A stretch of 64,000 bases of DNA, taken from Thiohalorhabdus denitrificans (lineage in GTDB: Bacteria; Pseudomonadota; Gammaproteobacteria; Thiohalorhabdales; Thiohalorhabdaceae). The DNA lies in NCBI RefSeq assembly GCF_001399755.1, contig NZ_LJCP01000005.1, positions 124,001 through 188,000 of the forward strand, read 5' to 3'. This document shows positions 52,954 through 53,697 of the stretch, one piece after another. The translations under genes were made by a program, and so were the position numbers. Below the pieces are notes generated by a model. That model did no database searches. It had not been told where the DNA came from and worked only from the letters and a program-made list of their open reading frames with translations. Each line of letters opens with the position of its first letter. The stretch's first letter is position 1.

Positions 52954-52982
52954 TTGACAGGAGGAAGGCACTTCTTTACATT
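52954..52982 (+). promoter_or_regulatory. Sigma-70 promoter of the tRNA-Ser / CDS / tRNA-Arg unit
   Basis: Consensus -35 TTGACA (52954-52959), 17 bases, then TACATT (52977-52982). Predicted start near 52989, 14 bases before the tRNA-Ser. It is the only promoter seen before the terminator at 53671. Confidence 0.75.
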
Positions 52983-53002
52983 ACCCATCTTCCAATCGTT
53001 AC

Positions 53003-53094
53003 GGAGAGGTGGCCGAGTGGCTGAAGGCGCTCCCCTGCTAAGGGAGTATGCGGTTGATCCCGCATCGAGGGTTCGAATCCCTCCCTCTCCGCCA
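53003..53094 (+). tRNA. tRNA-Ser (anticodon GCU)
   Basis: Acceptor arms GGAGAGG and CCTCTCC pair perfectly; the discriminator is G and CCA is encoded (53092-53094). D-arm GGCCGAGTGGCTGAAGGC, anticodon loop with GCT at 53037-53039, a long variable arm (TATGCGGTTGATCCCGCA) and T-loop GGTTCGAATCC are all as expected for a class II tRNA-Ser reading AGC/AGU. Confidence 0.96.
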
Positions 53095-53115
53095 TTAACG
53101 CTCGCCATCCTGCTG

Positions 53116-53577
53116 ATGGCGCTCGCGTGGCCCGCGGCCGTCCCGGCGGCGGAGCACCCGGAAGGGACCCGCATCGAGCAGGAAACCGCGCCGGTCGATC
53201 TGGTGCGCCTGCAGGTGGTGGACAAGGTGGAGGGCCGGCGCTGGACCATGCCCATCCCCGAGGGGCTCACCACCTCCCTGCCCGACGCCATCCACCGCGT
53301 CCGCATCACCGGGTACACCGAGGCATTGACCCTGGAGGAGCCGCCCCGCTCCGCCGAGGACGAGGGGGATGCCGAGGCCGGGGAAGAACGCCCCGATCCC
53401 GTGTCGCGCGCGGATGGCGAGGACAATCCCGCAGTCTTCCTGCAGCTGTTCCGCGGGGAGGAGCTGGTGGGCGAGAGCTGGATCCTGCAGCGGACCTCGT
53501 ACTTGTTCCAGCCCTCCAACATGCGCTATACTTTCCGCCTTCTTGGGGTCGACGAGGCCTCCGGGAAGGAAAACTGA
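53116..53577 (+). CDS. Small exported protein, possibly DUF2155-like, between two tRNA genes
   Basis: At least 153 residues. The only ATG after the tRNA is at 53116, but the hydrophobic segment LTLAILLMALAWPAAVPAAE, a good signal sequence, begins right after the tRNA CCA, so a CTG at 53110/53113 or a start inside the tRNA (GTG 53017) is possible. No ribosome binding site is visible. The mature part has LQVVDKVEGRRWTMPIPEG, an acidic linker, and VFLQLFRGEELVGESWILQR, which loosely resembles DUF2155 periplasmic proteins. It stops four bases before tRNA-Arg. Confidence 0.6.
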   Translation: MALAWPAAVPAAEHPEGTRIEQETAPVDLVRLQVVDKVEGRRWTMPIPEGLTTSLPDAIHRVRITGYTEALTLEEPPRSAEDEGDAEAGEERPDPVSRADGEDNPAVFLQLFRGEELVGESWILQRTSYLFQPSNMRYTFRLLGVDEASGKEN

Positions 53578-53581
53578 ACGG

Positions 53582-53658
53582 GCGCCCGTAGCTCAGCTGG
53601 ATAGAGCAACTGACTACGAATCAGTAGGTCTGAGGTTCGAATCCTCACGGGCGCACCA
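53582..53658 (+). tRNA. tRNA-Arg (anticodon ACG)
   Basis: Acceptor arms GCGCCCG and CGGGCGC pair fully; discriminator A and CCA are encoded. Anticodon stem CTGAC/ GTCAG-type with ACG at 53616-53618, D-arm GCTCAGCTGGATAGAGC and T-arm TGAGGTTCGAATCCTCA are standard. A34 would be edited to inosine by TadA to read CGU, CGC and CGA. Confidence 0.96.
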
Positions 53659-53670
53659 TACGCAGAATAA

Positions 53671-53697
53671 GGCCCCCGGCGACGCCGGGGGCCTTTT
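53671..53697 (+). terminator. Rho-independent terminator after tRNA-Arg
   Basis: GGCCCCCGGC and GCCGGGGGCC form a perfect 10-bp stem with a GAC loop, followed by four T. It closes the tRNA-Ser / CDS / tRNA-Arg unit. Confidence 0.85.

Follow-up and report, generated by a model that had tools for sequence, protein, structure and literature searches.

The window, a 64,000-nucleotide stretch of the Thiohalorhabdus denitrificans genome, carries two tRNA genes, tRNA-Ser(GCU) and tRNA-Arg(ACG), with a coding frame lying directly between them, and no other tRNA was called in the window. The features of the locus, in window coordinates, are the following.

52954-52982, forward strand: sigma-70-type promoter TTGACA-N17-TACATT of the tRNA-Ser unit, a scan hit in the window and in the second species of the genus
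53003-53094, forward strand: tRNA-Ser(GCU), CCA encoded, single copy, from tRNA calls
53003-53019, forward strand: candidate start within tRNA-Ser, formed by the Shine-Dalgarno-like GGAGAGG (53003-53009) and an in-frame GTG (53017-53019)
53095-53577, forward strand: frame of a predicted exported protein, apparently a divergent DUF2155 relative, ending in TGA (53575-53577) and conserved in the second species
53116-53118, forward strand: ATG, the sole in-frame ATG, GTG or TTG between tRNA-Ser and the mature protein, within the hydrophobic segment
53503-53532, forward strand: promoter-like element TTGTTC-N18-TATACT, probably for tRNA-Arg, conserved in both species and supported by a synonymous-recoding test
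53582-53658, forward strand: tRNA-Arg(ACG), single copy, from tRNA calls
53671-53697, forward strand: intrinsic terminator with a 10-bp GC stem, GAC loop and TTTT, read from the sequence, its orthologue found by scan

The tRNA calls, the promoter scan and the sequence agreed with the outline given in the initial annotation, in which a promoter, tRNA-Ser(GCU), a frame with its TGA four bases ahead of tRNA-Arg(ACG), and a terminator follow one another. The terminator was missed by the scanner in the window and was read directly; the scanner caught the orthologue in the second species. The anticodon arm of tRNA-Ser has one match in the whole genome, and as neither tRNA has a second copy, transcription of the locus is required. 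The frame is stop-free from the CCA, which ends at 53094, to the TGA. With 21 bases between the CCA and the first ATG and 4 bases between the TGA and tRNA-Arg, it adjoins both tRNAs and leaves no room for a usual leader. As had been noted earlier, nothing resembling a Shine-Dalgarno sequence precedes ATG 53116, and the hydrophobic stretch of the signal peptide, LTLAILLMALAWPAAVPAAE, begins at the first codon past the CCA. Outside the unit, a 710-aa exported protein with three PPC-domain stretches and a JDVT-CTERM sorting tail is encoded upstream (49834-51966, forward strand), and a 98-aa frame without a convincing family match lies just past the terminator (53845-54141, reverse strand).

The same layout was found in a second species of the genus (genome G001, locus L003), with tRNA-Ser at 1388-1479, the frame, TAA at 2038-2040 and tRNA-Arg from 2041, so that the spacer after the stop codon is 0 bases. 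The tRNA-Ser promoter has identical hexamers and spacing in the two species, and the tRNA-Ser(GCU) sequences are identical as well. The two proteins share 57% identity, the length differences between the genes preserve the frame, and substitution rates were dN 0.31 and dS 0.88 (dN/dS about 0.35). Because layout, identity and dN/dS agree, the frame is a real protein gene under purifying selection within a conserved sandwich, and its conservation in G001 argues that the layout is not a chance one; a chance open frame or pseudogene was ruled out by the same conservation and dN/dS. Conservation of the frame in relatives had been set beforehand as one test on which the initial proposal could fail, and the frame was kept. 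Among the 56 relatives searched, only G001 had the protein, at this same locus. The other genome of the genus, G002, with a completeness of 82%, yielded neither member of the tRNA pair and is therefore uninformative. Both scans of the genome contigs for the protein were empty, and single- and two-sequence searches gave matches in this genus only.

The window protein had no Pfam match even at E 10, falling below the gathering cut-off of DUF2155 (PF09923), and no match to NCBIfam or PDB sequences. DUF2155 was suspected from the motif pattern, and its members were then collected for comparison. The two-sequence genus profile aligned with the profile of tRNA-linked DUF2155 proteins with an hhalign probability of 94 (E 1.3e-7, 98 columns), and directly with the alphaproteobacteria-like DUF2155 set weakly (hhalign E 0.002); a DUF2155 match at E 0.01 or better was obtained for 69 of the 72 aligned relatives. 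Profile similarity, the NPA...GW/SW motif and export are common to the window protein and DUF2155, whereas the window protein has an acidic insert and no lipobox. On this profile evidence it is a very divergent DUF2155 relative, and it is not called a formal member because the Pfam cut-off is not reached. The profile and locus comparisons that link it to DUF2155 ruled out a genus-only orphan.

The AlphaFold model is a seven-strand all-beta fold, with good confidence only when relatives were included: two sequences gave a mean pLDDT of 48, and 72 sequences including DUF2155 relatives gave a mean of 77, a core above 90 and pTM 0.68. Foldseek of the model against the PDB gave no significant match. 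The best VIA-align hits, a DUF1608 S-layer domain (Z 7.1, 80 aligned, rmsd 2.6) and CcsBA (Z 6.7, 79 aligned, rmsd 4.3), are both in the range of common arrangements. The protein is most likely exported and, judging from the model, all-beta, and a role in the envelope may be supposed. To our knowledge, DUF2155 has no known function. The DUF2155 profile also weakly matched the ResB-like proteins L235 and L236 (E 1e-5 and 7e-5; ResB identity read from the sequence), which together with the CcsBA alignment hints at a possible relationship between DUF2155 and the periplasmic beta domain of ResB/CcsB. In one alphaproteobacterium, the DUF2155 gene is non-essential and shares its operon with NDUFA12 and with mlaD, a gene for lipid transport; these are its neighbours there instead of tRNAs (PMC9226611).

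The DUF2155 sequences closest to the window protein are likewise read out of tRNA 3' ends. In two distant pseudomonadotan families (f192 and f212), which we infer to be Zetaproteobacteria, the gene encodes a lipoprotein; tRNA-Ser(GCU) was found upstream of it in 42 of 51 loci, tRNA-Arg(ACG) directly downstream in 48, and both in 40. The same two isoacceptors thus flank a DUF2155 gene on the same strand in the window and in these families. A second DUF2155 set of 34 loci, apparently from Magnetococcia, has tRNA-Ser(GCU) upstream in 21 and tRNA-Ser(GGA) about 450-800 bases downstream in 29; in this group (L190-L229) a serine tRNA thus stands on either side of the gene, GCU before and GGA after. 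The 30 best alphaproteobacteria-like DUF2155 loci had no flanking tRNA of such kind. By these comparisons, at least two distant groups have the gene flanked by the same two isoacceptors, and the layout appears to be ancient, because the same arrangement recurs in distant bacterial groups.

In some relatives the coding frame enters the tRNAs. Six f192 loci from two genera (L169, L171, L174, L176, L177, and L180) have CC-ATG starts, in which the A is the last base of the CCA. In 13 loci of three genera, the lipobox cysteine stands at a distance of exactly 17 codons from the CCA-overlapping codon, and in genus g304 a GTG, TTG or CTG occurs two codons later in 5 of 6 loci, as if the start had moved. 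At the other end, the stop codon lies in or overlaps tRNA-Arg in 27 of 48 loci; 20 of these stops are the TAG of the D-loop region, 6 are an earlier TAG, and 1 overlaps the first base of tRNA-Arg. The 3' overlaps may be neutral, since short spacers often lack a stop codon and entry into the tRNA is not improbable. The CC-ATG starts are harder to dismiss.

A sigma-70 matrix picked up a second promoter-like element that a simple promoter scan had missed, TTGTTC (53503-53508), N18 and TATACT (53527-53532), within the 3' end of the gene, where the initial annotation had seen no internal promoter. The homologous place in G001 reads TTGTTT-N18-TATACT, with the same -10 hexamer and spacing and a near-identical -35 hexamer. 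When the peptide was held fixed and codons were redrawn from local usage, 1 of 1000 redraws for the window and 3 of 1000 for G001 scored as high as the element, and nothing in the rest of the gene came near its score in the matrix. Its predicted start lies about 42 bases upstream of tRNA-Arg, and promoter-like sequence was also seen by eye just 5' of tRNA-Arg in other gammaproteobacteria. The element is probably a tRNA-Arg promoter embedded in the coding sequence and not the source of the protein's mRNA. The single promoter first proposed therefore stands as a strong, conserved TTGACA-N17-TACATT, although no longer as the only likely one; that claim alone is weakened, because the internal element would serve tRNA-Arg and not the protein. 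A separate transcription start inside the region had been named in advance as evidence against the proposal, and such a start is in part indicated by a likely promoter whose product would be the tRNA.

In the reading that we prefer, and to which we assign a probability of roughly 55%, the locus is an ancient tRNA-mRNA-tRNA operon from which processing would release a near-leaderless mRNA, with a second promoter for tRNA-Arg. One transcript, begun at the tRNA-Ser promoter and ended at the terminator, would include both tRNAs. These would be excised by RNase P together with an endonuclease acting on their 3' sides, probably RNase E, and the released mRNA would begin at the CCA or a few bases past it and end at tRNA-Arg, lacking a Shine-Dalgarno sequence and almost all untranslated sequence. 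From the second promoter, in the last part of the gene, tRNA-Arg would be made independently, and with its own promoter within the gene its supply would not depend on the long transcript. Escherichia coli RNase E is known to process polycistronic tRNA precursors by direct entry (PMC3985628). The co-transcription, the cuts and the leaderless or near-leaderless translation are predictions from the sequence, and expression of the protein may be coupled to tRNA processing or translation. One unit with a processed mRNA nearly free of untranslated ends had been proposed from the start, and it is supported by the fact that the second species and distant families have kept the sandwich. Several points count against the operon: the first normal start lies in the signal peptide, with the likely internal promoter the tRNAs need not share every transcript, and in relatives whose frames run into the tRNAs, full excision would harm the message.

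The position of the start codon bears on how the message would be made. Between the CCA and the hydrophobic segment of the window protein there is neither a positive charge nor a start codon that could be used; CC-ATG is absent from the window and from G001. The seven codons before ATG 53116 show changes only among hydrophobic or small residues in G001, and their hydropathy was equalled or exceeded in 4% of random mutation runs in a simulation. The sequence hints that translation may begin upstream of ATG 53116; the candidates are GTG 53017, within the tRNA, and some non-standard start codon close to the CCA.

A gene read by ordinary read-through, translated from ATG 53116 whenever a transcript extends beyond tRNA-Ser, would have no functional coupling to tRNA processing and a merely historical neighbourhood. 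No canonical start other than ATG 53116 keeps its position in both species, some f192 loci (e.g., L152 and L153) have the gene's own ATG further from the tRNA, and the alphaproteobacteria-like DUF2155 genes do without such flanking tRNAs. A start at this ATG, however, leaves MALAWPAAVPAAE, a very short, uncharged stretch that would not make a normal Sec signal, and no ribosome-binding site is present. The persistence of the sandwich across distant families is also left unexplained, and we consider this account rather unlikely.

Quite unlikely is a start inside tRNA-Ser on unprocessed transcripts, at GTG 53017 with the GGAGAGG of the tRNA as ribosome-binding site; the tRNA would then encode a positive n-region (...SRVRIPPSPP), and a given RNA would serve as tRNA or as message, not both. 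It would agree with the missing charge and start after the CCA, with the preserved hydrophobic character of the codons before ATG 53116, and with relatives L148 and L189, which also have no usable canonical start after the tRNA. Yet GGAGAGG and the in-frame GTG both belong to the normal sequence of a tRNA-Ser, folding of the tRNA pairs the bases of the Shine-Dalgarno-like stretch, and in other relatives the start is clearly at the CCA. The 3' third of tRNA-Ser is also open in all three frames, so that an open frame there carries little weight.

Where the frame overlaps a tRNA, complete excision of the tRNA would cost the message its start or stop, which would be damage rather than clean release. 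A gene in which each transcript gives either two tRNAs or a complete message, with tRNA-Ser lending bases to the start or signal peptide of the frame and tRNA-Arg, in many relatives, to its stop, would make the tie of an envelope protein to tRNA maturation the conserved function; we regard this as improbable.

The preferred tRNA-mRNA-tRNA operon has two known likenesses. As in the tRNA punctuation of animal mitochondria, an mRNA lies directly between tRNAs, its release by cuts at the tRNA ends is expected, it has nearly no untranslated ends, and the coding ends touch or overlap the tRNAs; unlike in mitochondria, only one locus is concerned here, in a bacterium, it has promoters and a terminator of its own, and the cuts are predicted from sequence. 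Bacterial ribosomes normally use mRNAs led by a Shine-Dalgarno sequence. In the E. coli tRNA-mRNA operons (thrU-tyrU-glyT-thrT-tufB, secG-leuU, and tyrT-tpr), tRNAs and a protein gene likewise form one unit that is parted by RNase processing, but there the protein gene is not packed between two tRNAs as tightly as here, where 0-4 bases remain on the 3' side and the signal sequence follows the tRNA without a gap.

The window tRNA-Ser has its best identity, 0.935, to gammaproteobacterial tRNA-Ser and reaches 0.848 to that of f192; tRNA-Arg was ambiguous. An import from f192 of both tRNAs and the gene as one block is not supported, as tRNA-Ser is closer to the gammaproteobacterial ones, and transfer of the gene alone is possible. 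A profile search of 369 gammaproteobacterial genomes gave the locus in this genus only, and weak DUF2155-like matches elsewhere had no tRNA nearby. In about 34 other gammaproteobacterial loci tRNA-Arg(ACG) comes after tRNA-Ser(GCU), in most cases at a distance of less than 200 bases and with no such gene between them; the longest gaps have no such frame, which speaks against the same gene being hidden there. The Ser-Arg spacers of L034 and L062 contain repeated pieces like the tRNA-Ser 3' end (e.g., AATCCCTCTCTCTCCGCCA in L034), resembling remnants of integration or duplication, and L054 has a partial copy of the tRNA-Arg 5' part (GCGCCCGTAGCTCCGCTGG) with a repeated flank between Ser and Arg. 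The gene may be ancestral and have been lost in most cases, or it may have entered between two tRNAs that already lay side by side. Ancestry with loss would explain why the same tRNA pair flanks the gene elsewhere, and suggests that the neighbouring tRNA-Ser(GCU) and tRNA-Arg(ACG) of many Gammaproteobacteria could be a remnant after loss of the gene between them.

Bacterial operons of tRNA and protein genes are already known. In the open-access literature we found no paper on this locus and no account of a protein gene that distant groups keep between one and the same pair of tRNAs, its frame touching or entering them, and the open-access DUF2155 papers examined contained nothing about tRNAs. 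Annotation pipelines that forbid overlap of coding sequences and tRNAs could miss or truncate such genes. The locus makes mitochondria-like tRNA punctuation in bacteria, and the start of translation on such an mRNA, open to test.
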